The position numbers were made by a program, and so were the translations under genes. From NCBI RefSeq assembly GCF_000253115.1, contig NC_014145.1:434001-498000 (forward strand): DNA of 64,000 bases. The letters are read 5' to 3'. How positions within the stretch are numbered: the first letter of the stretch is position 1; every line of letters starts with the position of its first letter. The notes beneath the pieces were generated by a model that was given only the letters and a program-made list of their open reading frames with translations, was not told the origin of the DNA and made no database searches. Source of the stretch: Thiomonas arsenitoxydans. Its GTDB lineage: Bacteria; Pseudomonadota; Gammaproteobacteria; Burkholderiales; Burkholderiaceae_C. Shown in pieces: positions 26,528 through 61,573 of this stretch.

Positions 26528-27721
<1,194 letters not shown>

Positions 27722-28300: not shown

Positions 28301-28339
28301 GCGTTTATGCGGGTCACAGGGGTTTTTCAAGGGCGACCA

Positions 28340-31620: not shown

Positions 31621-31693
31621 GCTTCAAGTTCACAAACAAGGGTGGGTCAGATCGAGATGAAAATAGTGGGTCAGGTTTGCATGGAAATCAACA

Positions 31694-37926: not shown

Positions 37927-39200
37927 CAATAAGTCTCCAGATGCAGGCGGCCTTGCGCCTTCAGCGCGGCGACGGTGTCGGCCCAAGGCAGGTCGGCCTG
38001 TTCGGCCACGTCGCGCAGGGCGAGCAACACGCCGTCTTCCATGGCCGTGAGGCCGCAGACGTAGATGTAGGTGTTGGGGTCGGTGAGCAGCTGCGCCACA
38101 TCGGCAGCACGCTCGCGGATCAGATCCTGCACGTAGCGCTTGGGCTGACCCGCGGCGCGCGAGAAGGCGAAGTTAATGTCGATGAAGTCCTTGGGCAGGT
38201 TTTGCAGCGGACCGAAGTAGGGCAGTTCCTCCTTGGTCCGCGCGCCGAAGAACAGCATGAGTTTGCCGCCGTCGAACTTGCCGCTTTTACGCAGGCGGCG
38301 GCGCCATTCGGTCATGGCGCGCATCGGAGCGCTGCCGGTGCCGGTGCAGATCATCACGATGTGGCTCTTGGGGTGGTTGGGCATCAGGAAGCTGGATCCG
38401 AACGGGCCGATGACCTGCACCGAGTCGCCCACCTTCAGGTCGCACATGTAGTTGCTCGCCACGCCGCGCACGGGGTTGCCTTGGTGGTCTTCCAGCACGC
38501 GCTTGATGGTGAGCGACACGTTGTTGTAGCCAGCGCGCTCGCCGTTGCGCGGGCTGGCCACGGAATACTGCCGCGCATGATGCGGGCGGCCCTGCTCGTC
38601 GGTGCCAGGCGGGATGACGCCGATGGACTGGCCCTCCAGTACCGGGAATGGCATGGCGCCGAAGTCCAGCATGATGTGGTGGGTGTCGTACTGCTTGCCC
38701 ACCTCGGTGACGCGCACGTTGCCTACCACCTTGGCAATAATGAACTTCTCCGCGGCCTTGGGGCCGTAGAGATTGGTGTAGGCATGGGCCGCGGACCACG
38801 GCGGCAGGCTGGCGCCGAAGCTGGCGCCGCGAAACACGTCGTGCGCTTCCGGTGCGACGGCGGCTCGCAGGGGCATGGCATCGACCTGCGCGGGCGCTTC
38901 GGCGTCGGCGCCTTCCCAGTCCTGCGGGTCGAGCGGTTCGGGGAGCACGTCCCATCCGAACTGTGCGTCCAGCGGGTAGGCCTGGTCGCGCGGCACGTCA
39001 CGCCAGTTGTCGATGGCGCCGGTGGGACAGGGCGGCACGCAGGCCATGCAGAAATTGCATTTATCCGCGTCAACCACATAGTTGTTGGCGTCATGGGTGA
39101 TGGCACCGACGGGGCAGGTGGCCTCGCAGGTGTTGCAGCGGATGCAGATTTCCGGGTCAATCAGATGCTGCCGCAGAACGGCGGGGGCGGCCATGTCCAT
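37926..39200 (-). CDS. boxA: Benzoyl-CoA 2,3-epoxidase, reductase subunit BoxA
   Basis: 424 residues. The N-terminus carries two 4Fe-4S ferredoxin motifs: C19, C22, C25, C29 and C48, C51, C54, C58. A long linker follows, then a ferredoxin-NADP reductase module: an FAD motif [18 protein letters not shown] and an NADPH motif [14 protein letters not shown]. It passes electrons from NADPH to BoxB for epoxidation of benzoyl-CoA. It lies downstream of boxB after a GC-rich hairpin. Confidence 0.95.
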
Positions 39201-39217
39201 GTGGGTCTCCAGGGGGA

Positions 39218-39237
39218 GGGGCGCGCCCGGGCGCCCC
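39218..39237 (-). promoter_or_regulatory. GC-rich hairpin between boxB and boxA
   Basis: GGGGCGC and GCGCCCC form a perfect 7-bp stem with a 6-base loop in the 48-base gap. No T run follows, so it is unlikely to terminate transcription fully. It could protect the upstream boxB message from 3' decay. Confidence 0.45.
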
Positions 39238-39248
39238 GCGGATGCTGC

Positions 39249-40676: not shown

Positions 40677-40730
40677 GATGGATGTCTCCTTGGTAAGAAC
40701 TTGCGATGGGGGGCGATGCGGGGTCGGGGG

Positions 40731-42395
40731 TCAGACGCGGTTCCAGTCGAACTCGGCCTTGTCGCCCTTGCCGTAAACCTTGAGCGCTCCGTGTTCGCCA
40801 ACGGCGTTGGGGCGCTGGAAGATCCAGTTCTGCCAAGCGGTCAGGCGTCCGAACACGCGGGTGAACAGATTCTCCGGTCCGTTGAAGCGCAAATTGGCTT
40901 CCATGCCTGTGAGGGCGTCTGGCGACATGGCCACGCGTTCCTCGATTGCGATGCGCACTTCGTCGTCCCAGTCGATGTCGTCCGGGTTGCGGGTGTTCAG
41001 ACCAAGGGCGTTGGCGGCGTCGCCGTCGAGAGGCTTGCCGATGACTGCGCGCACCTTGTCGATTGCGGCCGCATCGCCATAGAAGCGGCGCTCCAGGCGG
41101 CTCTGGCTCGTGGCCATCGGGTAGAGGCCGAAGTTCACTTCGCCCACCACGATCTTCGGCGTGCGCTGCGCATCGTCGGGCAGCATGAGTTGGTAGATGC
41201 GGTCGGCGGTGAGCGCGATTTCCAGCAACGTGCCGGCAAAGCAGGAGCCCGGCTCGATCAGCGCGAACAGGCTGCGCGAGGACACGTCCAGACGGCTGAA
41301 GGCGCGGCGCAGCATGCCGATGGTTTCGCGCACCAGCCAGAAATCGCGGTTGGCGAGCAGTTGCTTGTCGAGCGCGAGCATGGCGTCGACGTCACCCTCG
41401 GTGCGCAGCAGCCAGGTGCCGATCGCCAGCTCGTTGGTGCGCATGCTCAGGATGGCGTCGTCCAGCTCGCGCGCCACGCGCAGAGGGTACCAGTTCGCTC
41501 CCTGCGCCAGCATCGCGGCCGTGTCGACTCGCTGTTCGCCACTCGGCCCCTTCACCACGAAGGTGGCGGTGCGATGGGCGCGGTCGATCTGCACGGTCAC
41601 GGCGGAATAGATCAGGGCATCGTCTTCGATGCGACGGTCCAGCGGGGTCAGCTTCACGCCCTGCGCGGCGGCCGGGCGGTTGCTATACGCGGCGAGTTCC
41701 ATCGCGCGGTCGTGCACGGCCTTGTCGAACACAGCGGGTTTGGCTACCGCGTCCACCAGGCCCCATTCGACCGCGCGCTGGCCGCGCACGCCTTCGGCGG
41801 TGGTGCAGAAGATGTCGGCAAGGTCGTGGCGAACGTGGCGCTTGTCGGTCACGCGGGTCAAGCCGCCGGTGCCGGGCAGCACGCCGAGCAGCGGCACTTC
41901 GGGCAGGCTGACGGCACTGGAGCGGTCGTCCACCAGCAGGATCTGGTCGCAGGCGAGGGCGAGCTCGTAGCCGCCGCCGGCGCAGGCGCCGTTGACCGCA
42001 GCGAGGAACTTCAGGCTGCCGTCGCGCGAGGAGTCCTCCATCCCATTACGTGTTTCGTTGGTGAACTTGCAAAAGTTCACCTTCCAGGCATGGCTGGACA
42101 GACCCAGCATGAAAATGTTCGCGCCGGAGCAGAACACCTTGTCCTTCAGGCTGGTGACCACCACGGTGCGCACTTCCGGATGCTCGAAGCGGATCCGGTT
42201 GAGCGCGTCGCTCAGCTCAATGTCGACGCCGAGGTCGTAGCTGTTGAGCTTAAGCTTATATCCTGAACGCAGGCCGGCGTCTTCATCGAAGTCGGCGGCC
42301 AGGGTGGCGATCGGGCCGTCGAACGTCAGGGTCCAGTGATGATACTGGGAGGGGTTGGTCTGGTAGTCGACGCGGGCAGGCTGGGTCACGAACAT
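40731..42395 (-). CDS. boxC: 2,3-epoxybenzoyl-CoA dihydrolase BoxC
   Basis: 554 residues: a double-length crotonase family protein with LALACDQILLVDD and LPEVPLLGVLPGTGGLTRV in the first half. It opens the epoxidised ring by hydrolysis to 3,4-dehydroadipyl-CoA semialdehyde and formate. It is the first gene of the catabolic operon boxC-boxB-boxA and onward. The ATG follows an AAGGAGA ribosome site, and BoxR-type operator sites lie just upstream. Confidence 0.96.
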   Translation of the reverse strand: MFVTQPARVDYQTNPSQYHHWTLTFDGPIATLAADFDEDAGLRSGYKLKLNSYDLGVDIELSDALNRIRFEHPEVRTVVVTSLKDKVFCSGANIFMLGLSSHAWKVNFCKFTNETRNGMEDSSRDGSLKFLAAVNGACAGGGYELALACDQILLVDDRSSAVSLPEVPLLGVLPGTGGLTRVTDKRHVRHDLADIFCTTAEGVRGQRAVEWGLVDAVAKPAVFDKAVHDRAMELAAYSNRPAAAQGVKLTPLDRRIEDDALIYSAVTVQIDRAHRTATFVVKGPSGEQRVDTAAMLAQGANWYPLRVARELDDAILSMRTNELAIGTWLLRTEGDVDAMLALDKQLLANRDFWLVRETIGMLRRAFSRLDVSSRSLFALIEPGSCFAGTLLEIALTADRIYQLMLPDDAQRTPKIVVGEVNFGLYPMATSQSRLERRFYGDAAAIDKVRAVIGKPLDGDAANALGLNTRNPDDIDWDDEVRIAIEERVAMSPDALTGMEANLRFNGPENLFTRVFGRLTAWQNWIFQRPNAVGEHGALKVYGKGDKAEFDWNRV

Positions 42396-42406
42396 CTCCT
42401 TGGGTT

Positions 42407-42477
42407 TGCATAAAACTGCATATCACTTGATGCGCACTTTAGTGCGCGCCTCGCCGCAAAGCAAGCACTTTAATGCA
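42407..42477 (-). promoter_or_regulatory. boxC control region with three NGCA-N6-TGCN sites
   Basis: Three 14-base quasi-palindromes lie between boxR and boxC: TGCATAAAACTGCA (42407-42420), CGCACTTTAGTGCG (42433-42446) and AGCACTTTAATGCA (42464-42477). The last two are 31 bases apart centre to centre, close to three helical turns. TGCA-N6-TGCA is the operator form described for BzdR/BoxR repressors. A possible minus-strand promoter (TTGCTT at 42459-42464, TAAAGT at 42436-42441, 17-base spacer) is overlapped by the second and third sites. Confidence 0.65.
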
Positions 42478-42493
42478 TTTTTTGTTTTGGTGA

Positions 42494-43432
42494 TTACCCT
42501 AGATTCAGGGCGTCGCGCACGGTCTGTCGAAGCAGCAGGAAGGTCTGATCCAGCGGCTGCGTACTGGTGTTCACCTGAAATTCCGCCTTGGAATAGAAGG
42601 CGGCGCGGCCGGCCAGGATGCTCTTCAAATCCTTCATGGCCTCGTCGCTCGCTGCCATTGGGCGCAGGTCGCCCTGGGCGACGACGCGCCTCATGTGGTC
42701 TTCCGGGCTGGCTTGCAGCCAGACCGTTGTGCAGTGGGCCAGCAACAGGTTGAAGGTGGACGGATCGGACACAAGGCCGCCGGGCGTGGCGATGACCGCC
42801 TCGGAATGAATCTGGATGGCCTCCTCCAGCGCCCGCCGCTCGTAGCGCCGATAGGCGTTCATGCCGTAGAGCGACTGGATCTCGGCGATGCTGCAGCCGG
42901 CGAACTGCTCAATCTCGCGGCTCAGTTCCACGAAGGGAAATCCCAGGTCTTCCGCCAGCATCTGCCCGAGGGTGGATTTGCCTGCGCCGCGCAGTCCGAT
43001 GAGGGCGACGCGCGAACTGCGGCCTGCGTTGTCGCCACCGGTGCCGAGCATCTCGCCCACGGCGGCGCGCACCCGATGCAGGGTCGCTTCGTCCCGGTGT
43101 TCGAGCAGCTCGCGCAGCAGCAGCCATTCCGGCGAGGAGGTGGTCACGTCTCCGATCAACTCGGCCAGACTGCATTGCAGCGCCTGGGCGACCTGCAGCA
43201 GGACCAGAATGGACGCGTTTCCCACTCCGCTTTCCAGGTTGGCGAGGTGGCGCTCCGAAACGTCCGAGGCGATGGCCACGGCCTTGCGCGTCAGGCCGCG
43301 GCGCGCGCGCAGGGCGCGCACCCGCTCTCCGAGTGCGATCAGGAAGGGGTGGCGCGCGTCCCCATGGGTGGCCCGGGCGGCGGCATCTTCGGGAGATCCC
43401 TCACGGGGAAGCTGCAATATATTGCTTGACAT
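42494..43432 (-). CDS. boxR: BoxR transcriptional repressor (HTH plus shikimate-kinase-like domain)
   Basis: 312 residues. An XRE-type helix-turn-helix lies at about 30-90 (LGERVRALRARRGLTRKAVA and DVSERHLANLESG). A linker follows, then a shikimate-kinase-like domain with the P-loop GLRGAGKS (146-153). This is the BzdR/BoxR architecture, in which the kinase-like domain binds benzoyl-CoA as inducer and releases DNA. It lies between the two divergent box arms and is transcribed toward boxC. One operator-like site covers its first codons, which suggests autoregulation. Confidence 0.93.
   Translation of the reverse strand: MSSNILQLPREGSPEDAAARATHGDARHPFLIALGERVRALRARRGLTRKAVAIASDVSERHLANLESGVGNASILVLLQVAQALQCSLAELIGDVTTSSPEWLLLRELLEHRDEATLHRVRAAVGEMLGTGGDNAGRSSRVALIGLRGAGKSTLGQMLAEDLGFPFVELSREIEQFAGCSIAEIQSLYGMNAYRRYERRALEEAIQIHSEAVIATPGGLVSDPSTFNLLLAHCTTVWLQASPEDHMRRVVAQGDLRPMAASDEAMKDLKSILAGRAAFYSKAEFQVNTSTQPLDQTFLLLRQTVRDALNLG
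43413..43426. promoter_or_regulatory. Candidate BoxR operator over the boxR start
   Basis: TGCAATATATTGCT fits the NGCA-N6-TGCN pattern. It lies within the first six codons of boxR and touches the -35 box of the divergent promoter. Confidence 0.5.
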
Positions 43433-43454
43433 CAGTGAAATCGGTTTCTATAGT
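43426..43454 (+). promoter_or_regulatory. Sigma-70 promoter for the DUF4863-boxD-bclA arm
   Basis: TTGACA at 43426-43431, a 17-base spacer and TATAGT at 43449-43454 give an almost perfect housekeeping promoter. Predicted initiation falls near 43461, about 55 bases before the first ATG. Operator-like sites overlap its -35 box and its start. Confidence 0.78.
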
Positions 43455-43459
43455 TTCAA

Positions 43460-43473
43460 CGCACAATACTGCA
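43460..43473. promoter_or_regulatory. Candidate BoxR operator at the transcription start
   Basis: CGCACAATACTGCA fits NGCA-N6-TGCN and covers the predicted +1 of the plus-strand promoter. A repressor bound here would block initiation. Confidence 0.55.
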
Positions 43474-43515
43474 CATTCGGCGTGGCGACAAGCCGCGTCG
43501 TCAAGGAGGCGACAG

Positions 43516-43998
43516 ATGGAAGCTGCCGATCTGCATCGACAGATTGCCAAGATCACCGAGCGCATCTCCGGCCAGCCGCTCGATACTAGGCTGCAGGATT
43601 GGCTGAACCAGGAGTTCGGCCCCGACACAGCGGCTTTTGCCGACCTGCAGCGCACCTGTGAAGCCGGCGTGGCGGAAGGCTGGCTATGCCAGCGCGAGGG
43701 CGGCGGCATCCGCTACGGTCGCGTGTTCAAGCCCGAAGTCGCGCTGCACGGATTCTCCGTCGATGTGGTGGAGATGGCTGATGTGGTAGGCCCGCACCAC
43801 AGCCACCCGAATGGTGAGATCGACCTGATCCTCCCGCGGGACGGCTCCGCGCGTTTCGATGCGCATCCTTCCGGCTGGCTGGTGTACGGTCCCGGCAGCG
43901 CGCATTGCCCCACGGTGAGCGGCGGCAGCGCCCTAGTGCTCTACCTGCTTCCGGAAGGCGCCATCTCTTTCACTCCGGCGGGGGAGGCACGCGCATGA
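43516..43998 (+). CDS. DUF4863 family protein (4-hydroxylaminobenzoate lyase-like)
   Basis: 160 residues, no signal peptide. The core reads VVGPHHSHPNGEIDLILP and HPSGWLVYGPGSAHCPTV, a cupin-like pattern of His and Glu that could hold a metal. The family includes PnbB, a lyase that acts on 4-hydroxylaminobenzoate in nitrobenzoate breakdown. No nitroarene genes are nearby; here it is the first gene of the BoxR-controlled plus arm, so its substrate may differ. The ATG at 43516 has an AGGAGG ribosome site. Its stop overlaps boxD as ATGA. Confidence 0.75.
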   Translation: MEAADLHRQIAKITERISGQPLDTRLQDWLNQEFGPDTAAFADLQRTCEAGVAEGWLCQREGGGIRYGRVFKPEVALHGFSVDVVEMADVVGPHHSHPNGEIDLILPRDGSARFDAHPSGWLVYGPGSAHCPTVSGGSALVLYLLPEGAISFTPAGEARA

Positions 43999-45554
43999 GC
44001 GAACTGCTCCCCAATCTGCTCGGCGACCGGTGGCAGACCGGGGCTGGCAGGGGCACACCATTGTTCGACCCCGTGCTCGGTGACGAACTGGTGCGCGTCG
44101 ATGCGGGCGGGCTGGACCTGCCCGCGGGTTTCACCTTTGCGCGCCAGACCGGCGGTGCCGAACTGCGGGCCATGAGCTACGCCGAACGTGCCGGGCTGCT
44201 GCGCGCCGTGGCCGATGTGATCAAGGTGAACCGCGACGACTACTTTGCCATTTCTACTGCCAACAGCGGCACGGTCTCCAACGACACCAGCGTCGACGTC
44301 GACGGCGCCGTCTACACCCTCGGCGTCTACGCAAAGCTCGGCGCAACGCTCGATGCTGGCTCCCTAATGGCCGACGGCGAGGCGGAAGGTCTCAGCCGCA
44401 ACGGCATCTTCCAGGCTCGCCACGTGTTCGCGCCGACGCCTGGGTTGGCCCTGCTCATCAACGCCTTCAATTTCCCCTCCTGGGGTCTCTGGGAAAAGGC
44501 GGCGCCCGCACTGCTTTCAGGCGTGCCGGTCGTGGTCAAGCCGGCCACGGCGACGGCCTGGCTCACGCAGCGCATGGTGGCCGACGTGGCCGCAGCGGGC
44601 GTGCTGCCGCCGGGCACCCTGTCCATCGTGTGCGGCAGTTCGGCCGGGCTGATGGATGCGCTGGAGCCGTTCGACGTGGTGTCGTTCACCGGCTCGGCGG
44701 AATCCGCGGCGGTCATCCGCTCGCACCCGGCGGTGACTCGTCGGTCGGTGCGGGTGAACATCGAGGCCGACAGCCTCAACTCCGCCTTGCTGCTGCCCGG
44801 CCGGGACGCCCAGGCACTAGCCCTGCTGGCCAAGGAAGTGGCGCTCGAAATGACCGTCAAGAGCGGGCAGAAATGCACAGCCATCCGACGGGTGCTAGTT
44901 CCTGCCGCGACGTACGGCGAGGCCGCCGCGGCCATCGGCGCGCGGCTTGAGAAGACGACGGTCGGCAATCCCCGGAACGCCGACGTGCGCATGGGTGCAT
45001 TGGTGAGCACGGCGCAGAAGGCCTCGGTGCTGGAGGGCTTGGCGCTGCTGCGCAACCAGACCGAAGTGCTGTTCGACGGCGGCTCGCGCCCGCTGATCGA
45101 TGCAGACCCCGAGCGCTCCTGCTGCGTCGCGCCGACCCTGCTCGGCACGCGCGACGCCGCGGGCAGCGATGCAGCGCATCTTGTGCATGACACCGAGGTG
45201 TTCGGCCCGCTGGCCACACTGGTGCCCTACAGAGACATGGAACACGCGCTGGCGCTCGCCCGGCGTGGCGAAGGCTCGCTGGTGGCTTCGGTCTACGGTA
45301 CGGACAACGTGGCGATGGCGGCAGCGGCCGCCGACCTAGCGAGCCATCATGGCCGGGTGCATGTGATCAGCCCCGACGTGGCTGCAACCCAGACTGGGCA
45401 CGGCAATGTGATGCCGCAATCGTTGCATGGTGGCCCCGGCCGCGCCGGAGGCGGCGAGGAACTCGGTGGTCTGCGGGCGCTGCGCTTCTATCACCGCCAT
45501 ACCGCCATCCAGGCCGCGACCAGCGTGCTCGACGCGCTGCCGCTGTCGGCCTGA
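43995..45554 (+). CDS. boxD: 3,4-dehydroadipyl-CoA semialdehyde dehydrogenase BoxD
   Basis: 519 residues of the aldehyde dehydrogenase superfamily. NAFNFPSWG (156-164) is the cofactor motif, E257 is the general base, and Cys294 in SGQKCTAIRR is the nucleophile. It oxidises the semialdehyde made by BoxC to 3,4-dehydroadipyl-CoA, with NADP as the usual acceptor. The ATG overlaps the DUF4863 stop, and bclA follows 30 bases later. Confidence 0.93.
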   Translation: MSELLPNLLGDRWQTGAGRGTPLFDPVLGDELVRVDAGGLDLPAGFTFARQTGGAELRAMSYAERAGLLRAVADVIKVNRDDYFAISTANSGTVSNDTSVDVDGAVYTLGVYAKLGATLDAGSLMADGEAEGLSRNGIFQARHVFAPTPGLALLINAFNFPSWGLWEKAAPALLSGVPVVVKPATATAWLTQRMVADVAAAGVLPPGTLSIVCGSSAGLMDALEPFDVVSFTGSAESAAVIRSHPAVTRRSVRVNIEADSLNSALLLPGRDAQALALLAKEVALEMTVKSGQKCTAIRRVLVPAATYGEAAAAIGARLEKTTVGNPRNADVRMGALVSTAQKASVLEGLALLRNQTEVLFDGGSRPLIDADPERSCCVAPTLLGTRDAAGSDAAHLVHDTEVFGPLATLVPYRDMEHALALARRGEGSLVASVYGTDNVAMAAAAADLASHHGRVHVISPDVAATQTGHGNVMPQSLHGGPGRAGGGEELGGLRALRFYHRHTAIQAATSVLDALPLSA

Positions 45555-45584
45555 CACAAGACAAGTACGAGGAGGAGACAACCC

Positions 45585-47171
45585 ATGACCGCAGCACTGC
45601 CCGCGCCCCCCTGGGGCGATCGCTTCAATATCGCGGAACACCTGCTGGCCTGCAACGCGGGGCGTCCCGACAAGCTGGCCTATGTGGACGATCATGCTTC
45701 GCTTACCTATGCCGAACTGGACACCCGGGTGCGTCAGATGGCCGCGGCGCTGCATGCGTTGGGCATCAAACGCGAGGAGCGGGTGCTACTGCTGATGCAG
45801 GACTGCTGCGACTGGCCGGTGGCCTTTCTCGGTGCCATCTACGCGGGGCTGGTTCCCGTCGCCGTGAACACCCTGCTCACAGCAGACGACTATGCCTACA
45901 TGCTCGAACATTCGCGGGCGCAGGCGGTGCTGGTATCCGGCGCGCTGCTTGCCACGCTCAATGCGGCGATGGTCAAGGCCGATCACGAGGTAAGCAAAGT
46001 CGTGGTATCCCGCCCGCAGGCACCGCTGCATCCGTCCGAAGTGGCGTTCGATGCCTTCATCCAGGGGCATGCACCAAAGCGCAAACCTGCGGGGACCGGG
46101 CCCGACGATCCCGCCTTCTGGCTTTATTCGTCCGGATCCACCGGACGGCCCAAGGGTGCGGTGCATTCGCAGGCCAACCCGTACTGGACCATTGAGCTCT
46201 ACGGCAAGGCGGTACTCGGTCTGTGCGAGGACGATGTGTGCTTTTCCGCCGCCAAGCTGTTCTTCGCCTACGGCTTGGGCAACGCCATCACGTTCCCGCT
46301 CGGTGTCGGCGCCACAGTGCTGCTGATGGCCGATCGCCCCACGCCAGAGGCGATTTTCATGCGCTGGATCGGCAGCGTCTGCGGCCTGAAGCCCACTGTG
46401 TTCTTCTGCGCACCCACGGGCTATGCGGGCATGCTGGCGCACCCTGACCTGCCCGACCGCGAAGCGGTGGCGCTGCGGCTCGCGTCCTCGGCGGGTGAGG
46501 CCTTGCCCGCGGAGCTGGGTCGTCGCTTCAAGGCGCATTTCGGGGCGGACATCGTCGACGGCATCGGCTCCACGGAGATGCTGCACATTTTCCTGTCCAA
46601 CCGCCCCGATCGCATCCGGTACGGCACCACCGGCTGGCCGGTGGACGGCTACGAAGTCATGCTACACGCCGACGACGGTGGGCCGGTACCCGACGGCGAA
46701 CCAGGGGACCTTTACATCCAGGGGCCGTCGAGCGCGCTGATGTACTGGGGCAACCGCGCTAAGTCGCGCGAGACGTTCCAGGGGACCTGGACGCGCAGCG
46801 GTGATAAGTACATCCGCAACACAGACGGCAGCTACACCTACGCCGGTCGCAGCGACGACATGCTAAAGGTAAGCGGCATCTACGTCTCGCCCATCGAAAT
46901 AGAGACCACACTGGCTCAGCATCCGGCAGTGCTGGAGGCCGCGGTCATCGGTGTCGCTGACGCAAATGGCCTGACCCGTACCAAGGCCTTCGTGGTCTTC
47001 AAGTCGGGGCAGCGGGCGGACGAGGCGACGCTCAAGGCCTTCGTCAAGGAACGTCTGGCGCCTTACAAATATCCTCGACTGATCGAATTCGTCGATGAAC
47101 TGCCCAAGACGGCGACCGGGAAGATCCAGCGCTTCAAGCTGCGTGACGCGGAGGTGACGCGTGCAGGGTGA
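45585..47171 (+). CDS. bclA: Benzoate-CoA ligase
   Basis: 528 residues of the adenylate-forming family. The ATP motif is YSSGSTGRPKGAVH, and GIGSTEM is the second core. The YAGRSDDMLKVSG hinge and PKTATGKIQRFKL with the catalytic lysine lie at the C-terminus. It activates benzoate to benzoyl-CoA, the substrate of BoxAB and the probable inducer of BoxR. No benzoate transporter is in the window. Confidence 0.95.
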   Translation: MTAALPAPPWGDRFNIAEHLLACNAGRPDKLAYVDDHASLTYAELDTRVRQMAAALHALGIKREERVLLLMQDCCDWPVAFLGAIYAGLVPVAVNTLLTADDYAYMLEHSRAQAVLVSGALLATLNAAMVKADHEVSKVVVSRPQAPLHPSEVAFDAFIQGHAPKRKPAGTGPDDPAFWLYSSGSTGRPKGAVHSQANPYWTIELYGKAVLGLCEDDVCFSAAKLFFAYGLGNAITFPLGVGATVLLMADRPTPEAIFMRWIGSVCGLKPTVFFCAPTGYAGMLAHPDLPDREAVALRLASSAGEALPAELGRRFKAHFGADIVDGIGSTEMLHIFLSNRPDRIRYGTTGWPVDGYEVMLHADDGGPVPDGEPGDLYIQGPSSALMYWGNRAKSRETFQGTWTRSGDKYIRNTDGSYTYAGRSDDMLKVSGIYVSPIEIETTLAQHPAVLEAAVIGVADANGLTRTKAFVVFKSGQRADEATLKAFVKERLAPYKYPRLIEFVDELPKTATGKIQRFKLRDAEVTRAG

Positions 47172-50174: not shown

Positions 50175-50539
50175 GACGAGGTGTTGACGGCGAGCTCTGC
50201 GGGTATGTGCACCGGCTCATCCGCAAAGGAGGTTGCGGTCAGCGCAATGTATGCGTTTGCCTAACCCCTCTTTTCAATGAGTCTGAGCTGAGCGAAGCTT
50301 GAGTTTTTTCGGATGTCGCCTAGTCGGACGCGACAGCGCCACGCTTCATTTTTGCGATACTGATTTGAGCCATGCGCCGGGTTTGCAGTGAGCCGGTTGA
50401 GGCGCGCTGAAATTCAAGATTGGCGCCGCGCGCAGATCGTTTGCCATGGCTCAGTCGCCGATCGGCATGCGGCTCAAATTGGCATTGTCGCCAAAACTCC
50501 CAACCTCTCATCCGCATAAATTTGCGTAGACCCATAACG
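50175..50539. other. 365-base stretch without an assignable gene
   Basis: Only short open frames lie here, the longest a 71-codon minus-strand frame (50320-50535) rich in Arg with no recognisable motif. No tRNA, clear promoter or terminator is seen. It separates the truncated AAA gene from the acetoin operon and may be a recombination scar. Confidence 0.5.
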
Positions 50540-51304
50540 TCAGATTACTTGCGTAAGAGCATAGGCAAGCGCGCCCACCCATTGGCTTGATAGGTCGCTC
50601 GGCACCTGCGCCCCTGGATGAGCGGCGCGCCATGCCTTGGCCAGGCTGGTCAGCGCATCGGCACGGTACCGCCGATCGCTTCCGGAGGCGGCCTCGAACG
50701 CGTTGGCGCGCGCCGTCAGCTCCTGCGCATCGCAATCCACGAGGATGACAGCGTGCGCCAGAACTATCGGAGCATGCCCAATGCGGCGCCACGACTGCGC
50801 GGTGCCCACGAGTTTGCGGCCTTCAAACGCTAGGTTGAAGCGGCCGTCGCAGAAGGAGCCGTTAACGCCTTGTGGCACGACAAGAACGCCGCATTGCGCA
50901 AAGGCCACAGCGAGGCGGTGGCATAGAGTTTGGTAAACGGCATCGGTGTCTTTGGGTATCGCACTCGTGCTGGGCCACGTGAGGCTGAGGTTGAGCACGC
51001 CGGGGCCTTGCGGCACAACACCTCCCCCCGAGCTTCGAACTTGCACGGGCCATCCAGCTGCCGCCGATGTGGAGCATGCCGCGGCCCAGCGAGCAAGACG
51101 CTCGTAGCTGCGCGGCACAACTAGCGAAGCGGGTGCGCTCCACAGGTGGACCTGCGCACGTCCGGTGGCGGCTGTATCCGCCATCCATTGCGCTTCGCTG
51201 GCCACTCCATGCAGCAGCGGTGTGTCGTGCACCGTGAAGGCGCGGGGGCTTAACAGGGGCAAGGCTGTGCCGAGCCTGGGCACCTGCACATCGGCCATGG
51301 CCAT
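50540..51304 (-). CDS. Lipoate-protein ligase A family protein
   Basis: About 254 residues of the biotin/lipoate ligase fold. The lipoate-binding loop reads VRSSGGGVVPQGPGVLNLS, and the acceptor lysine block is GRFNLAFEGRKLVGTAQSWR. It would attach lipoate or octanoate to the lipoyl domain of AcoC. It closes the acoXABC operon after 49 bases. The ATG at 51304 avoids overlap with acoC; an in-frame ATG at 51385 inside acoC is possible. Neither has a strong ribosome site. Confidence 0.75.
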   Translation of the reverse strand: MAMADVQVPRLGTALPLLSPRAFTVHDTPLLHGVASEAQWMADTAATGRAQVHLWSAPASLVVPRSYERLARWAAACSTSAAAGWPVQVRSSGGGVVPQGPGVLNLSLTWPSTSAIPKDTDAVYQTLCHRLAVAFAQCGVLVVPQGVNGSFCDGRFNLAFEGRKLVGTAQSWRRIGHAPIVLAHAVILVDCDAQELTARANAFEAASGSDRRYRADALTSLAKAWRAAHPGAQVPSDLSSQWVGALAYALTQVI

Positions 51305-51353
51305 GGCCACACCGGGCGTGGGTGGGCCGCACACTTCGGGTGCCGCGCCCTGG

Positions 51354-52469
51354 TCAACCGGTGACGTGGCGTTTGAGCAGCGCATTGATCTCGTTGGCCC
51401 GCTCCATCATGGTCATGTGGCCGGCACCTTCCAGAACCTCCACGGTGGCGCCCGCAGGCGCGTGCACGGCGTGGGAGGAGGGGATGATCCGATCCTCGCG
51501 GCCCCAGACCACAAGCACGGGTTTGCCGACACCGCCCAAGCGCAAACCGGGCTGCTCGGCCTGCTGACCTGAGCCGAACTGAGCTGCGCTCAAGGCCTGC
51601 AGCAGCTCGGGCACACCGTCCAGCCGCTTGTACTTGAGCAGGTTCTCCAGCAACGAGCGGCTGACCAGTTCTGGGTTGGCAAACAACTGCTCGACCAAGG
51701 GCTTGAGCTCGCGGCGCGAGGTCGCGGCAACGAAGCCTTCGGTGTAGCCCGCGTTGATCTCGGTGCCAAGCCCTGCGCTGTTGATTAGCGCCAACGATGC
51801 CACCCGCCCGGGATAGTCCAGGGTCATCTGTGAGGCGATTGCGCCGCCCATCGAATGCCCCACCACGTGTACACGCTCGACGTGCAGTTCATCGAGAAAA
51901 TGCACGACAAAGCTGGCTAGGTCGGCAAGTGCGGTGCCTGGCAGCCTCGAAGTGGACTGTCCGTGCCCGGGCAGATCCAGCGCGATGACTGGAGCCACTT
52001 CGGCGAGTACGTCGAGATTGAACAGCCAGTTGTCGAGATCGCCGCCGAAACCGTGCAGGAACAGCACTGGCACGCCGTCGCCCAAACCCCGTCGCGCATA
52101 GCGCACGTGCAAGCCGTCGATGTCGGCGAAACTGTAAGGCGGCGGGTCGTCGTCTTCGCTCGTCGCGACAGCGGGCACCACATAGTTGGCGACGTAAGTA
52201 TCGATCTCGGCCTCGCTGACAGCCGCATCGGCCATTACGCCCAAGAGCGCCTTGACTGGCAGGGTCTGCCCCTCCTGCGCCACCTTGCGGCGCAGGAGGC
52301 CGGGATCGGGCGCCTCCACTGCGTTGGAGATCTTGTCGGTCTCGACTTCCATCAGCGGTGTGCCCACCTCGATGACCGCTCCAACATCGACCAGCCACGC
52401 CGTAATGGTGCCTTCCTTCATTTCCAAGCCCCATTTGGGCATGATGATGGGAGTGAGAGTAGTGCTCAT
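51354..52469 (-). CDS. acoC: Acetoin dehydrogenase complex, dihydrolipoyl acetyltransferase AcoC
   Basis: 371 residues. An N-terminal lipoyl domain (1-80) has the lipoylated lysine K46 in EVETDKISNAVEAP. The C-terminal two thirds are an alpha/beta-hydrolase fold with HVVGHSMGGAIA, replacing the usual E2 catalytic domain, as known for AcoC of Cupriavidus and Pseudomonas. It takes the acetyl group from AcoAB and hands it to CoA. The ATG overlaps the acoB stop as TGATG. Confidence 0.9.
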   Translation of the reverse strand: MSTTLTPIIMPKWGLEMKEGTITAWLVDVGAVIEVGTPLMEVETDKISNAVEAPDPGLLRRKVAQEGQTLPVKALLGVMADAAVSEAEIDTYVANYVVPAVATSEDDDPPPYSFADIDGLHVRYARRGLGDGVPVLFLHGFGGDLDNWLFNLDVLAEVAPVIALDLPGHGQSTSRLPGTALADLASFVVHFLDELHVERVHVVGHSMGGAIASQMTLDYPGRVASLALINSAGLGTEINAGYTEGFVAATSRRELKPLVEQLFANPELVSRSLLENLLKYKRLDGVPELLQALSAAQFGSGQQAEQPGLRLGGVGKPVLVVWGREDRIIPSSHAVHAPAGATVEVLEGAGHMTMMERANEINALLKRHVTG

Positions 52470-53493
52470 CAGTTGTGCCCTCCGGCAAACGTGCGTTTCA
52501 CAGCATCGGCAATCTGGGCCGCACTCGGGACGTACAGATCCTCTAGCACTGGCGAGAATGGCACAGGCACATGCGGTGGCGTGACCATCTCGATGGGCCC
52601 TTTCAGTGCTTTGAAGGCATGCTGCACCACTTGCGCGGAAACGTCGGCCGCGATACTGCAACGAGGTGAAGCCTCGTCCACGCAGACCAGATGGCCGGTT
52701 TTCTCGACGCTTTCCAGGACGGTATCGAGATCAAGGGGACTGAGCGTGCGCAAGTCGATGACCTCGCAATCGATGCCGGTTTGGGCAAGCGTGGTCGCTG
52801 CATCGAGGGCGCGCTGGACCATCTGGCCGTATGTGACGATGCTGGCATGCTTGCCCTCGCGCACGACGTTTGCCTCGCCAAAGGGAATGACATAGCTGGC
52901 TTCAGGCACCTCGCCCTGCACGCCGTAGAGATTCTTGTGCTCGCAGAAAATCACGGGATCGTTGTCACGAATCGATTGAATGAGCAAACCCTTGGTGTCA
53001 TATGGGCTGCTGGGACACACCACCTTGAGTCCCGGAATGTGGGTGAACAGCGGGGTAAGCATTTGCGAGTGCTGCGCTGCTGCGCGCATGCCTGCGCCCA
53101 CCATCGCGCGGATGACCACCGGGGTCTGCGCCTTGCCCCCGAACATGTATCTGAACTTGGCGGCCTGGTTGTAGATCTGGTCGAAGCACACGCCCATGAA
53201 GTCAATGAACATGAGTTCCGCCACGGGCCGCATGCCGCACGCAGCGGCACCAATGGCGGCGCCGACATAAGCGCTTTCCGACAGGGGCGTGTCCATTAGG
53301 CGGTCGCCGTGCTTGGCGTAAAGGCCCTTGGTCACACCGAGCACGCCGCCCCAGGCGTCGCGCTCGCCGTCCGCGCCGGCGGCGCCCACGATGTCTTCAC
53401 CCAACACGATCACCGAGGGGTCGCGCGACATCGCGACATCTCCTGGTCGAGTGCTTCGTTGATGGCTTGTTTCATGCTGATCTTGCGTGCCAT
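52469..53493 (-). pseudogene. acoB: Acetoin dehydrogenase beta subunit AcoB, frameshifted near its start
   Basis: The natural start is the ATG at 53493 behind GGAGAGCCACC, which reads MARKISMKQAINEALDQEMS, the proper AcoB N-terminus. An 8-base unit (CGCGACAT, plus strand) is then present twice, at 53424-53431 and 53432-53439. After it the frame turns to RCRATPR and stops at 53410. The rest of the protein (MSRDPSVIVLGEDIVG on, 320 residues, intact to 52469) is in another frame. It could be made only from the internal ATG at 53431 inside the repeat. One repeat copy fewer would restore a perfect gene. The body has the transketolase-like fold with the AcoB beta-subunit motifs. Confidence 0.85.
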
Positions 53494-53504
53494 GGTGGCT
53501 CTCC

Positions 53505-54488
53505 TTAATAGGCAACGTAAACGTCGGTGGTCAGATCGGCCAAGGTGGGCAGCGGTGCGGCCTTCGCCTCTGCCACGGAGCGCTCGATGAGCGCGGCAAT
53601 CTCGCGATCCATGGCCTTGAGCTCCTCCTCGGTGCTTACTCCGCCGCTGATGAGAGCCGCCGAGAATTTCTTAAGGCAGTCCTGATTGGCACGGATGTCA
53701 TCGAGCTCGCCGGGGCCCCGGTAGGTCTGCGCGTCGCCTTCGAAGTGTCCGAAGAAGCGCACCATTTTGCATTCCAGCAAAGCCGGTCCGCCGCCCGTGC
53801 GCGCCCGGTGGATGATCTCGCCCGCAGACTCGTGCACGGCGAAGAAATCCGTGCCGTCGACCGTCACTCCCGGGAGCCCGAAGCCGGCCGCGCGGTCCAC
53901 ATAGCTGTCCACGGCTACCCCGTAGTCGCGCGAGGTGGTCTCGGCATAGCCGTTGTTCTCGACTACGAAGACCACCGGCAGGTTCCACACCGCGGCTAGG
54001 TTCAGGCTTTCGAGAAAGGTTCCCTGGTTGGAGGCGCCATCGCCCACGAAACTCACGGCCACCTCGGACTTGCCGCGGAATTTCGCAGCCAGTGCCGCTC
54101 CGCACGCCAGGGGAGCTCCGGCGCCCACAATGCCATTAGCCCCCATCATGCCCTTGTCAAGATCGGCAATGTGCATAGAGCCACCTTTGCCATTGCAGGC
54201 GCCTCCTTGCTTGCCATAGATCTCTTTCATCATCGCCATCACGTCAACGCCCTTGGCGATGCAGTGCCCGTGACCGCGGTGCGTGCTGGCAATGCGGTCG
54301 CCGTCGCCAAGATGCATCATGACGCCGGTCGCAGCCGCCTCTTCACCGGCGTAGAGGTGTACGAAACCGGGAATGTCGCCCCGACCGAAGTCCACATGCA
54401 GACGGTCCTCGAATTCGCGAATCGTGCGCATGGTGCGGTAGGCCTGAAGCAGCTGCTCCCGGGACTGGGGAAAAGGATTGCCTGCCAT
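53505..54488 (-). CDS. acoA: Acetoin dehydrogenase E1 alpha subunit AcoA
   Basis: 327 residues, thiamine-diphosphate dependent. GDGASNQGTFLESLNLAAVWNLPVVFVVENN is the ThDP motif, with GDG at its start and NN at its end. AcoA and AcoB together cleave acetoin to acetaldehyde and an acetyl unit. The ATG at 54488 follows AAAGGAG and gives the standard N-terminus. acoB begins 11 bases downstream. Confidence 0.93.
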   Translation of the reverse strand: MAGNPFPQSREQLLQAYRTMRTIREFEDRLHVDFGRGDIPGFVHLYAGEEAAATGVMMHLGDGDRIASTHRGHGHCIAKGVDVMAMMKEIYGKQGGACNGKGGSMHIADLDKGMMGANGIVGAGAPLACGAALAAKFRGKSEVAVSFVGDGASNQGTFLESLNLAAVWNLPVVFVVENNGYAETTSRDYGVAVDSYVDRAAGFGLPGVTVDGTDFFAVHESAGEIIHRARTGGGPALLECKMVRFFGHFEGDAQTYRGPGELDDIRANQDCLKKFSAALISGGVSTEEELKAMDREIAALIERSVAEAKAAPLPTLADLTTDVYVAY

Positions 54489-54501
54489 GGTTGATCTCCT
54501 T

Positions 54502-55575
54502 TTAGTGATTAAGCGAAGAGGTGTAGCGCAGTAACTGTGCATTGGCGGCAAAGCCCATGCACCGGGCGACGTCTACGGTGAAAAATGCGTTCTCGCGAAG
54601 GGTCATATCCACACGCTGGCCGTGCTCGAAACCGAGTTCGCGTTCGCCGTCGAGGGCGACGGTGCCCGCTTCAGCCAGCACCGGCAGAGCCTCGCCGGCG
54701 ACCATGCGCTGCCAGCTGGCAATGTCCACGGGGCGCACCATGCCGGGTGCAATCGGCGCGTGCAGGCTCAGCAGGGCTTCGCGTCCGCCGTGCGCGAGCT
54801 GAACCGCCAGGCCACCGGACTCCAGCCGCCCTACGGGCTGCAACAGGCCGCCGATTGCCGACAATCCAATCGCCTGGGGATCGGCAAAGGCCAGATACAG
54901 CGCAACCAGAGAGTTGGTCTTCCACAGCGCGCGTGCACCCAAGCTGTGATCGTGGGTGATGGCTGCGTCGACGATAGCGATGTCGCGCCGGGTGCCTGCG
55001 CGTGCATCTTCGATGCGCACCTCTATCGCTTTGTTGCGTGCCAGCGCTTGGGCGCGCGCGATGCGCCCGCTGGCAAAAAGCCCGACGGCCATCCCAGTGA
55101 TCGTGGGCTCGCGCATCTCGGGAAAGGCGTTGTTCGTGCCCGTCGACAACCCGGCAATCGGCACGGCACTGTTATCGTCAACGAGCTGGCGCGCCACCGC
55201 GCGATGGGTGCCGTCGCCGCCCAGAACCACGATCGCCGACACGCCCATGCGCTGCAAAAGCCTGGTCGCGGTGAACGTGTCCTCGACCGTGGACGTGGGC
55301 TGCATATCCAGGAACTCGATGGCCGGCAGCGAGTGATCGGTGCCGCGCCTGATATGGCGCTCCAGAAGGGAGCGGATACCACCGCGGTCGGGCATGATCC
55401 AGGCCCGCTTGACGCCACAGGACGCTGCGGCGCTGAGCAGTCGAAGCACGATGTTCACCCTATCGGTGATCTGCAGGTTTCCGGCATTGGCCACAATGCG
55501 CCGGATGTCGCGCGCCGATACGGGGTTGGCGACAACACCAATGCTGGCTTCAAGAGCGTGGGCCACGCGAGTCAT
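54502..55575 (-). CDS. acoX: Acetoin catabolism protein AcoX
   Basis: 357 residues. The ATP-NAD kinase-like motif IVVLGGDGTHRAVAR lies near residue 115. AcoX proteins open the aco operon in Cupriavidus and Pseudomonas; their reaction has not been assigned. The start follows 38 bases behind a consensus sigma-54 promoter, making this the first gene of the transcript. Confidence 0.88.
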   Translation of the reverse strand: MTRVAHALEASIGVVANPVSARDIRRIVANAGNLQITDRVNIVLRLLSAAASCGVKRAWIMPDRGGIRSLLERHIRRGTDHSLPAIEFLDMQPTSTVEDTFTATRLLQRMGVSAIVVLGGDGTHRAVARQLVDDNSAVPIAGLSTGTNNAFPEMREPTITGMAVGLFASGRIARAQALARNKAIEVRIEDARAGTRRDIAIVDAAITHDHSLGARALWKTNSLVALYLAFADPQAIGLSAIGGLLQPVGRLESGGLAVQLAHGGREALLSLHAPIAPGMVRPVDIASWQRMVAGEALPVLAEAGTVALDGERELGFEHGQRVDMTLRENAFFTVDVARCMGFAANAQLLRYTSSLNH

Positions 55576-55612
55576 ACCGAAGTTCCAAGAGCGTAAGGTT
55601 GGTTCCTATTAC

Positions 55613-55627
55613 GCAACTCGCGTGCCA
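55613..55627 (-). promoter_or_regulatory. Sigma-54 promoter upstream of acoX
   Basis: On the minus strand, TGGCACG (55627-55621), CGAG and TTGC (55616-55613) match the -24/-12 consensus exactly. It lies between acoR and acoX and points into acoXABC. Enhancer-binding regulator genes lie directly upstream, as such a promoter requires. Confidence 0.9.
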
Positions 55628-55713
55628 TTGTTGCTTGGCCCCGTTGCTGAAGGGGGCCCGGGGCGCGAAGCGCCGTTGTGCACCTCGGCCAGATGTCACA
55701 TTTAGTATTCGGC

Positions 55714-57636
55714 CTAAGGCGTGTGCTTGGGCGAGTGGATACCCCATCGTTTCATGTGCCGGTACAGCGTCATGCGAGATTTGCCCATCTGTTGTGCAAC
55801 GGCGCTGATATTCCACTGCGCGGCACGAAGCGACTCAAGCAGTTGCTGGGCTGCGGGCGGGTGAAGCGCTGCGTCGGGGTGGGCGCGCACTGATGGCGCG
55901 GCTGCGCCCAGCAAGGTATCAGGCAAATCCTCGATCCGGATCACGCCATCGCGGCATACGGCACGGGCAAAGGCCAGCGTATTGTGCAATTCGCGCAAGT
56001 TCCCCGGCCAGCTGTAGCTGAGCAGCGCCGCCTCGGCCTCGCGCGACAGCACCACGGCAGGTTCTTCCTCGTGCAGTAACTTGTGCAGCAGCCACAGAAG
56101 ATCGCGCCGCTGGCGTATAGCGGGAAGTTTCACACGGGCACCGGCCAGCCGGTAGTACAGATCATCCCGGAAACGACCAGTTTTCACCAGCGTTTCAAGG
56201 TCGCAATGCGTGGCTGCGATCACGCGAATGTCCACGGGTAGGGGACGCGTGGCGCCAATGACTGGCACTTCGCGCTCGGCCAGTACGCGCAGCAACCGCC
56301 CCTGCAGGTCACGCGGCATATCACCGATCTCATCCAAGAACAGCGTACCACCGTCGGCTTCATGGATGAGGCCTCGCTTTCCCTTGCTACTAGCGCCGGA
56401 AAAGCTTCCGGGCAAGTAGCCAAAAAGCTCACTCTCGATCAGCGTCTCGGGGATGGCCGCGCAATTGACCGCGACGAACGGTTTGTTTCGGCGTTGGCTT
56501 GCCTCGTGCAGGCCTTTGGCAAGGTACTCCTTGCCGCTGCCAGTTTCCCCCGTGATGAGAATGCTGATAGGCGAGTCGACAAGCTTTGCCGCGCGCGCAA
56601 TTTGGCTATCCAGCGTCGGGTCGCCGCCAGAGAGCTGAGCCAGCGGCGCCGGCAGCACCGGCGCCACCATGTCGTCCGTCGCCGCAGCGCGGCGAGCAGG
56701 GGGCGGCAGCGCATGCAGAAACAGCACCTGCCCGCGGCCTACGAGGGTCACCGCGCGCCGCTCGTCGGGCGTGGCCCGCATGAACTGGCCCAGATCATCA
56801 AGTCGAATATTGAACGCGCTCTCTAAGGCCATGCCCAGAACAGGGCCGCTGTTTGCTGCCTGAAGGAGCAGCTGCGCCTGCCTGTTGTGCCCGATGATGC
56901 GTCCGCCCGCATCGACCGCCAGCAGGTAGTCAGGGCTGATCTCCACAAACTCCGGCGAAGGGTGCAGCTTGAGCACCCAGTCATTGCGAAACCAGCGCAG
57001 GAAGTTTGCGTTTTCCACGCGGCTTGCATAGACCTTGACCAACTGGAGTGCCAGATGCTGGCTCGTTTTCATTTTGGGCGACGTCAGCGCCGAGATATCT
57101 AGGACGGCATTAATCTGGCCAAATGGGTCATAGATAGGTGCGGCTGTACAGGTCAGCGGAATATGGGTCGCATCGAAGTGATCGTCCTGATGGACCGTTA
57201 GCGCCTCGCCTGTCATCAGGGCCGTGCCCACGCCACAGGTGCCAGCGTGGTATTCACTCCAGTCCGCGCCAAGGGACAGGCCGGCGTGGCGCAGGGTGTG
57301 GTCGAGCTGGATGTCCCCGATGAAATCCACCGTGATGCCGCGCGAGTCCGTGAGCAAAACGCAGTAGCCCATGCCGACGACCTGCTTATACAAGGACTCC
57401 AAGCCGTAGCGTGCCATATGCAGAAAATCGTCGATACGCTCCCGGTGCTCGCGCAGCTGCTGTTGATGCAGGATCACAGCGGGGCGCATGCAGGTGGGAT
57501 CTAGGCGGTGCTCGTGTACGCAGCGCGTCCATGACTCGCGAATCACCCCATCGAGGGCGAGGGACGTGCGAAGGGGGAGGCCCTCGCCGGCCAGAGTCAT
57601 GACCGTTTGGATGTGTTCACGCGCGCGCAAGTCCAT
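55714..57636 (-). CDS. acoR: Sigma-54 enhancer-binding regulator AcoR
   Basis: 640 residues. An N-terminal GAF-type sensory half includes [21 protein letters not shown]. The AAA+ domain has Walker [15 protein letters not shown] and Walker [14 protein letters not shown]. The sigma-54 contact loop reads GSFSGA instead of GAFTGA. A Fis-type helix-turn-helix ends the protein ([20 protein letters not shown]). It should activate the acoXABC promoter on sensing acetoin or acetaldehyde. The start ATG follows GGAGACAGCC; longer starts to 57771 are possible. Confidence 0.88.
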
Positions 57637-57778
57637 GGCTGTCTCCAGGGTCGGGCGCGTGGCCAGCGCCTCTAGCTCTGAAGGGTAAATGTACTCTGTC
57701 GCGGGCGCTGCGGGAATTGGGATCCTTGCACAACGAGGAATGAGCCTGAGCGAAGGTTGAGAGGCAGGCACTGACGCC

Positions 57779-59752
57779 CTACTTTTGTATTACGTGCCGG
57801 TAAAGCGTGCTGCGATGCACCCCTAACAGCCGCGCAGCGCGGCTGACGTTGCCGCCGCAGGACGCGATTGCTGCATGAATCGCGGTGTCGGTCATGGCGC
57901 GCAACGGAACTGGGGACGTTGTGGCTCCTTCCCACTCAGCATCCGGGCGCGTCAGCGCGCTTGACGGCGAGGGTGGCTGTTGGTGATGTGTTCGCCAGTC
58001 GCGCCGAATCTCATTGGGGAGATCGGCAAGCTCGATGCAACTCCCAGGTTCGGCCAGCGCCAGAAGCGTCTGCGCGACGGCAACGAGTTGCCGCCAGTTG
58101 CCTGGCCATGAATAGTCCAAGAGCGCATCGCGCGCCTGCGGACTGAGGCGGAGCCTGCCGGAAGGCAGGATGGTCTGCAGCAGTTCGTCAATGTGCGCCT
58201 TGGCGTCGGCATGCTCCCGCAGCGCTGGCAAGTCGACTACGAAGTGCTGCAGGCGATAGTACAGATCGCTTCGGAAACGCCCCTCGGCGGCCATCCTCCT
58301 AAGATCGCGATGGGTGGCACACATCAGCACAAAGTCCACGCTCTGCTGGCGCCCGCCACCAAGCGCCTTGACTTCATGATCCTGCAAGACCCGGAGGAGC
58401 CGGGCCTGCATCGACAACGGCATGTCCCCGATCTCATCCAGAAACAAGACGCCGCCGTGCGCCTCTCGAATCTGTCCCGCCTGACCCTTGCGTCGGGCGC
58501 CGGTGAATGCACCCTCCTCGTAGCCGAAAAGTTCGGCCTCGATCAGGCCTTCCGGAATTGCAGCGCAATTGACCGCGACAAAAGGCCCTTGGCTTCGCTG
58601 GCTAGCCTGGTGGACCTGCCTGGCAAACACTTCCTTGCCGACGCCCGACTCCCCCAGGATCAGGACCGGAATGCCGCAGTCCAGGACACGCACCGCGCGT
58701 TGCCGTTGTGCCTCTCTCTGCGGGTCGACGATGATGGGCGGTTTAGACGAGGGGATTTGGCGGACCTGCTCTGTGGATTCTTGCTCAACGGCCAGGGTGA
58801 GGCGATTCGAGGCGCTCTTGGGACCGACCCAGCCTGAAGCCCACGATGCTGATTGCCCTGGCCGTACGAGCCAGGGGTGAAGAGCGAGTTCAAACTGCTC
58901 CCGGTCGGTCGCAGGCAAGGCGCTAAACAGATCATCGACAAATCGGCCACGCAACTGTTCGAACGTCATCCCGAGGGCGCGCATCGCGGCGCGATTGGCG
59001 CCGACAATCGTTGCATTTCGGATCCACAGTAGAGCTTCGCGATGTGAGCCGATCAGGGCCGGGTCGCGTGCAAAGCGCAGGATTTCGGTATGCGCAGGAC
59101 AATTGTCCATCGCCATGCGGTGTTCGATCATCTGCCCTGCCATGCGCACAAGACCCACAGTCTGGGCTTGAATGCAGCGCGGATCGCCCGAAACATCCAG
59201 CACGCCCAGAACCTGCCCTTCCGAGCCCAGCAGCGGTGCGGCGGTGCAGCCCAAGGCGCCGTTTTGTTCGAGGTAATGCTGGAGTCCAAGAACGGTGATC
59301 GGCGAGCATTCCGTCAGCGCCGTACCAATCGCATTGGTCCCCCGCTGGACTTCGGACCATTCGACGCCTGGCATCAACGCCACGCGCTGGGCCTTGTTCA
59401 TGAACACATCGGATCCCGCTGCATCGAGAATCATGCCCTGTGGGTCGGCCAGCAGCACCATCACCCGTGAGGGTGACAGCGCTTCGGCCAAAGCCTCCAG
59501 CTCGGGCAGCGCGTGTCGGCGCAGCTGCCCCTGCGCGTCGCGCCGGGCTAACAACGCCTCTTGCGCCAGGGGTTCGGGAGTCCCACTGAGTGAGCAGGGC
59601 AGAGCAGAGCACCGCCGCCATGACCTTGCAATCAGCTCTGGCACCGAGCCCTGCGGATCGCTTCCATCTTCAAAAAAACGCTGTCGCGCCAACTGCAATG
59701 TGGTCGACAGCGTGGCGATTCCCGCGCTGTCCACTGGCCTGGACTGGTGCAT
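57779..59752 (-). CDS. Second AcoR-like sigma-54 enhancer-binding regulator
   Basis: 657 residues with the same layout: GAF-like sensor ([21 protein letters not shown]), AAA+ domain with [14 protein letters not shown] and the canonical EGAFTGA loop, and a Fis-type helix-turn-helix ([19 protein letters not shown]). The ATG at 59752 follows AGGAGA. It is divergent from the aldehyde dehydrogenase gene, so control of that gene is more likely than of aco. The sensor domain differs clearly from that of AcoR, so a different ligand, for example an alcohol or aldehyde, is plausible. Confidence 0.87.
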
Positions 59753-59812
59753 GTCTGTCTCCTGAGCTGGCGTGCCATCGAGGTCGTGGCAACCAATCTT
59801 GTATTGGCAAAG

Positions 59813-59826
59813 TGTCGCACTCGACA
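59813..59826. promoter_or_regulatory. Inverted repeat TGTCG-N4-CGACA, possible activator site
   Basis: A perfect 5-base inverted repeat with a 4-base gap lies between the divergent regulator and aldehyde dehydrogenase genes. It is about 150 bases upstream of the possible sigma-54 promoter, a normal enhancer distance. Confidence 0.35.
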
Positions 59827-59976
59827 GCCGCCATGTCACCTGTTGCAAGATGCGACGCTTGAGTGATGCGAATCGCGAATACAGCGCGAGGGCCCGTCTC
59901 CGGGTAACACCGGAGGCCTTCATCTAAGTGCTTGTTCTTGAACGCCTCAGATGTATCTTGATGTAAGAGACGGTGT

Positions 59977-59991
59977 TGGCACGGTTCCTGA
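59977..59991 (+). promoter_or_regulatory. Possible sigma-54 promoter of the aldehyde dehydrogenase gene
   Basis: TGGCACG at 59977-59983 is a perfect -24 box. The -12 box is CTGA instead of TTGC, so the conserved C is missing. It lies 62 bases before the ATG and beside an enhancer-binding regulator gene. Confidence 0.4.
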
Positions 59992-60052
59992 TAACGATGA
60001 GAGCACTGCATCTGCAGCGCAGCGCTTTTCCCAACAATCTCAGGAGACCTTC

Positions 60053-61573
<1,521 letters not shown>

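Follow-up and report, generated by a model that had tools for sequence, protein, structure and literature searches.

In Thiomonas sp. 3As, a mine-drainage bacterium that we take to be Thiomonas arsenitoxydans, the E1 beta gene acoB is interrupted near its start by an 8-bp tandem duplication, and the ATG made by the repeat lies 8 nt behind a perfect AGGAG; the latter observation is new in this analysis. The account that we consider likely is that the duplication is recent and private to 3As, that a restart of translation gives a shortened AcoB which is inactive or strongly impaired, and that growth on acetoin is lost or poor. Replication slippage most likely made the duplication, after which ribosomes on the operon mRNA would start or restart at the new ATG (position 53431), yielding a 320-residue AcoB that lacks its first 18 residues and leaving acoC and the ligase gene behind it translated; the enzyme, however, would work poorly or not at all. 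All positions are those of the window, the whole 64,000-nt stretch of DNA that was analyzed. Its cysteinyl-tRNA synthetase has its best named matches in Thiomonas, and NCBI taxonomy places T. arsenitoxydans in the Burkholderiales.

The duplication and the probable start site it creates

The features at the lesion are the following.

53424..53440, unit CGCGACAT on the plus strand and GATGTCGC on the minus strand: 8-bp tandem duplication inside acoB, two full copies plus one base (found by TRF)
53410..53493, minus strand: 27-codon short ORF opened by the natural acoB ATG and closed by TGA at 53412-53410
52469..53431, minus strand: AcoB body, 320 aa, E1 beta without its first 18 residues, opened by the repeat-made ATG
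53440..53444, minus strand: AGGAG, Shine-Dalgarno-like, 8 nt before ATG 53431 and abutting the first-copy ATG at 53439

At 53424-53440, Tandem Repeats Finder reports a period of 8, 2.1 copies and a 100% match, with CGCGACAT as the unit. Minus-strand translation from the natural ATG at 53493 gives MARKISMKQAINEALDQEMSRCRATPR and then a stop; the first 20 residues of this short frame are the normal AcoB N terminus, and the frame is lost after residue 20. ATG 53431 stands 62 nt away from the natural ATG and thus lies in a different frame, which continues for 320 codons to a stop at 52471-52469, in frame with the AcoB body. The sequence-only reading had proposed that an 8-bp tandem duplication breaks the frame of acoB, that the natural ATG is read for 27 codons up to a stop ending at 53410, and that a second ATG supplied by the repeat is in frame with the body. 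Each of these statements held when checked with Tandem Repeats Finder, against relatives, which read through the site, and by translation, and so did the assignment of the gene as acoB, which lies in an acoX-A-B-C cluster.

Repeats of this kind are not rare. The window has three perfect 8-bp tandem pairs, against 1.3-2.0 expected from simulation (three Markov orders, 40 sequences per order), a number so close to chance that the tandem pair alone proves nothing and stands out only against the relatives. RNA folding across the repeat site was unremarkable (z of -0.42, 0.34 and 1.06). mutS1 is present and scores over its cut-off, so that no mutator state is indicated by this gene. A perfect 10-bp palindrome, GTCGCGCGAC, occupies 53420-53429 and has a second copy in the window at 48614; it might favor slippage at the repeat. 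The string CGCGACATC occurs seven times in the window, twice of these at the acoB repeat, against 1.6 expected, possibly reflecting coding bias.

The AGGAG at 53444-53440 is itself coding sequence, and it is the presence of two units that puts an in-frame ATG 8 nt after it. An AGGAG spaced by 5-9 nt precedes 16 of the 1905 ATGs on the two strands of the window, among them both ATG 53431 and the natural acoB start, where the spacing is 7 nt; the computed Shine-Dalgarno pairing is -7.4 kcal/mol for the repeat ATG versus -9.2 kcal/mol for the natural one. Sixteen in-frame starts fall in the first 110 body codons, and among them ATG 53431 alone has a Shine-Dalgarno-like 5-mer at 4-10 nt. Moreover, ATG 53431 lies 19 nt upstream of the TGA of the short frame, a distance within reach of re-initiation, so that, as in a translationally coupled pair, a second start with a ribosome-binding site stands near the first stop. 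This overlapping arrangement is not conserved among 100 related loci. A restart site of such strength exactly at the lesion makes a near-complete product likely, and strengthens the earlier suggestion that a shortened protein might be made. Read from the sequence, the duplication breaks the frame and simultaneously offers a new start; the 320-residue protein is probably made, with the downstream genes still translated.

The aco operon and its surroundings

The genes and sites around acoB, all on the minus strand, are listed here.

50540..51385, minus strand: last gene of the operon, lipoate/octanoate ligase-like, open (PF21948)
51354..52469, minus strand: acoC, acetoin dehydrogenase E2 with an alpha/beta-hydrolase domain, open (NF011457, 455 bits, cut-off 307)
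53505..54488, minus strand: acoA, E1 alpha, open (PF00676, 340.8 bits)
54502..55575, minus strand: acoX-like NAD-kinase-type gene, open (PF01513)
55613..55627, minus strand: sigma-54 (-24/-12) site, perfect match to TGGCACGnnnnTTGC, 37 nt to the acoX ATG
55714..57771, minus strand: sigma-54 activator, open (PF00158, GAF, HTH_8)
57779..59923, minus strand: second sigma-54 activator, open (PF00158, GAF, HTH_8)

acoB thus sits in an acoX-A-B-C cluster with a sigma-54 site and two activators, the latter presumably AcoR-like. The site upstream of acoX is the only match without mismatch in the window to TGGCACGnnnnTTGC, which we take to be the sigma-54 (-24/-12) consensus; matches with up to two mismatches are no more frequent than chance (35 versus 41 expected). 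A sigma-70 scan of 50400-58000 returned no site. Together, the perfect site and the activators suggest that the operon is under sigma-54 control. The acoC ATG (52469) overlaps the acoB stop (TGATG), and translation of acoC may therefore depend on ribosomes arriving from acoB.

A candidate second acoB elsewhere in the genome (G000:C2:526063-526953) was rejected: it is the next-best E1 beta, only 39% identical, in a pyruvate-dehydrogenase-like operon adjoining PEP-synthase- and enolase-like genes (names from reading the translations).

Divergent from the aco regulators, the acetaldehyde dehydrogenase ExaC (59951-61573; NF050026, 965 bits) is a plausible partner in acetoin breakdown. On the other side, 26149-33461 starts with a tRNA-Ser (GCT) and continues with IS3- and IS21-type transposase genes, after which come benzoate-type genes (33.6-47.2 kb) and the aco genes, an island-like layout; no exact repeat of the tRNA-Ser of 14 bases or more occurs elsewhere in the window. 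The IS21 istA-like gene (29277-30827) is apparently split into two same-frame ORFs by a stop at 30321-30323; only the first piece has a Pfam match, and the neighboring istB is matched as well. The cluster at 33617-47171 resembles aerobic benzoyl-CoA catabolism (presumably the box genes) and includes a fused HTH and shikimate-kinase-like regulator at 42494-43432.

The missing N terminus and the state of the AcoB body

To place the lesion among relatives, we compared 100 related loci, made up of the best 80 of at least 576 confirmed relatives, 18 loci from a family search and two from a relatives search. The search for related loci used the AcoB body alone, which makes the choice of relatives independent of the N terminus; records very near the window's own genome may be left out of the set, two loci (L084 and L119) belong to the same genome, and other species may likewise coincide. 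The N terminus of a full-length relative aligned in frame in all 100 loci, in 99 from residue 1 and in one from residue 4, and none of the 99 varies at R3, A10, N12, E13 or A14; the best 80 of the at least 576 relatives all have the segment in frame. The family search covered 299 genomes drawn from a larger group and found 19 with AcoB at E <= 1e-100. Alignments began at residue 1 in 17 of these, at residue 4 in one that is 64% identical, and at residue 16 in the window's own genome; the other 18 showed no stop.

Of 60 genomes searched for the duplication junction with up to three mismatches, only the window's own has it; its absence from the other 59 is a weak control, given that only G029 and G044 among them have an AcoB of at least 80% identity. 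One locus (L059) shares this stretch but has a single unit. The protein search scored 8000 candidates from a database clustered at 90% and listed 120; the top match among these is 96% identical and full length, and same-species alleles could hide inside its cluster of 10. Also in this search, one 518-residue E1 beta (P0005) repeats a long part of itself internally. Within the genus, represented by one genome per species, AcoB of this type occurs only in the window's genome among the 13 searched; in the other 12 (83-100% complete) the best match is 41% identical. Such a restricted presence fits the 3As genome paper, which counts acetoin degradation as one of the accessory metabolisms located on genomic islands (PMC2829063). 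No sibling allele turned up in plasmid collections, where eight records match at 60-80% identity, and a phage collection gave no match.

Truncated AcoB retains both domains, PF02779 (Transket_pyr, 143.7 bits) and PF02780 (Transketolase_C, 138.1 bits), with an incomplete N terminus of the former: its Transket_pyr match starts at position 17 of the 174-position profile, versus position 2 in the full-length relative, so that the first 16 profile positions are missing, and the score compares with 163.1 bits in that relative. The NCBIfam E1 beta model NF006667 gives 323.1 bits, just over its cut-off of 321, and 342.6 bits for the full-length relative. Among 25 solved sequences matched, 12 are E1 beta chains in which the missing segment is aligned; in the remaining 13, which are transketolase- and DXS-like, alignment begins no earlier than residue 45. 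Structure prediction, on alignments that were too shallow and too alike, gave a mean pLDDT of 48.9 for the full-length relative and 46.9 for the truncated protein. Since Transket_pyr is missing its conserved beginning, loss or strong impairment of function is to be expected and is the most likely consequence of removing these 18 conserved residues. In Parageobacillus, according to the available part of PMC10185769, deletion of acoB1 abolished growth on acetoin and 2,3-butanediol.

The body itself shows little decay. There is no further stop or frameshift beyond the duplication, and against eight chosen relatives its dN/dS is 0.063-0.143 (0.083-0.119 for acoA), with dS so near saturation that recent relaxation is not measurable. 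We further counted departures at near-invariant columns, excluding matches below 70% identity (50% for acoC) or 94% coverage and dropping two loci (L061 and L068) for acoB because their match held a stop, supposed to be the gene's own end. Such departures number 2 among 161 columns for AcoB (a tied rank 5 of 81; the others average 0.49), 0 among 164 for AcoA and 2 among 86 for AcoC; since AcoC also departs at two columns, AcoB is not singled out and no special decay is indicated. Little decay may point to a young lesion or to selection still acting on the shortened protein, and these data fit both equally; the open state of the other operon genes suggests that the lesion is young.

Alternative explanations and known systems

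The sequence-only reading had left the choice between a reversible switch and a recent loss. Recent loss fits best, and the switch finds no support, the tract having two copies only and the frame at this site being unbroken in all 100 related loci. A different objection to loss is that the duplication may simply have replaced the start, the shortened AcoB still working and acetoin use being kept, perhaps at a lower level. The AGGAG before ATG 53431, with its computed pairing and no equal among the early in-frame starts, would suit this idea, as would the open body, partners, promoter and regulators, the acoA-like dN/dS with little decay, and the score that still passes the NCBIfam cut-off. Against it, the lost residues are kept in every one of the 100 related loci and aligned in the 12 solved E1 beta chains, and Transket_pyr is left without its beginning; we thus judge a working shortened enzyme unlikely, if the strongest of the alternatives. 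Less probable again is a sequencing or assembly error, the real genome having one unit. Relatives reading straight through and a body under normal constraint are what an error would produce, and yet the 17-bp tract lies well within one clone-end read. We note in the same sense that the genome, a chromosome of 3,738,778 bases and a 46,756-bp plasmid (3,785,534 in total), was assembled from clone-end reads with Phred/Phrap/Consed and taken through a finishing phase, as described in parts of PMC2829063. Programmed recoding, in which a -1 shift at the overlap would join the two frames, deserves almost no credence: upstream of the overlap the body frame does stay open as far as a stop at 53533, but the zero frame holds no X XXY YYZ heptamer between start and stop, and none of the 100 related loci needs such a shift.

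A reversible phase switch, with gain and loss of one 8-bp unit turning acetoin dehydrogenase off and on in the population, appears to us very improbable. In its favor, the unit is not a multiple of three, so that copy number changes the acoB frame as it does in phase-variable genes, albeit with two copies only, and from a perfect tandem pair one copy can drop out. Comparable events are known. In pneumococcal capsule genes (the type 3 locus, cap8E and tts), as in acoB, a tandem duplication within the frame puts the gene out of action, and its later loss is possible; spontaneous duplications with reversible capsule loss, and hence phase variation, are reported there (a statement in PMC4243769 and the titles it cites), whereas acoB is a catabolic gene and its duplication, unlike those, brings with it a new start behind a Shine-Dalgarno site. 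The icaC tetranucleotide repeat of Staphylococcus aureus resembles acoB in having a unit length not divisible by three, with the frame set by copy number; passages of PMC4117637 describe switching of these 4-bp repeats in a tract of several units that varies in 9 of 103 genomes, with one revertant per about 45,000 cell divisions, in contrast to the two 8-bp units of acoB and the lack of a tract in its relatives. Salmonella mutL alleles, for which switching is likewise reported, share with acoB a few copies of a short tandem unit whose gain or loss changes function, although in mutL the unit is 6 bp, hence in frame, and the wild type has three copies (PMC2955026, in part). Conversely, PMC6786866 considers the lrp mutations of Xenorhabdus, three tandem duplications of 26-116 bp among them, to be a diverse and irreversible set. 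Short tandem duplications, then, are able to revert, and they arise by ordinary mutation too.

Weighing against a switch, a repeat with a frame transition shared by related genes was not found, none of the 100 related loci being broken at this place. Under the GeneTack scheme, a singleton frame transition counts as an indel or a sequencing error, and clusters of five or more were asked for to propose phase variation (PMC3711429, in the part seen). Among the loci examined, the acoB site is such a singleton; a switch is possible but unsupported. The more elaborate version, in which one unit gives full AcoB and two units give an AGGAG-started short AcoB without polarity on acoC, the two states interconverting in mine-drainage populations, is if anything slightly less probable than the simple switch. 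The arrangement at acoB is closer to that of indel pseudogenes (singleton frame transitions): among the loci examined it has a single private lesion with intact orthologues, as a recent indel pseudogene does, and differs from these in having a strong restart site exactly at the lesion. A strain difference in acetoin dehydrogenase genes also exists in Deinococcus radiodurans, where passages of PMC11219805 report acoA and acoB in one sequenced strain and their absence from another; an ISDra2 segment makes that difference, in place of the short duplication seen in acoB.

The acoB lesion may already be marked in database annotation. Among openly licensed full texts on Thiomonas and acetoin, PMC2829063 does not use the word "frameshift" and has "pseudogenes" only in a supplementary figure legend; in the openly licensed literature on acoB, acetoin and frameshifts, the lesion is not described in the accessible parts of PMC11219805 or PMC10185769. 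If acoB is out of action, as we consider likely, acetoin use would be wrongly predicted for Thiomonas 3As. If instead the restart protein were made and working, one short duplication would have both broken a reading frame and built a new start site.
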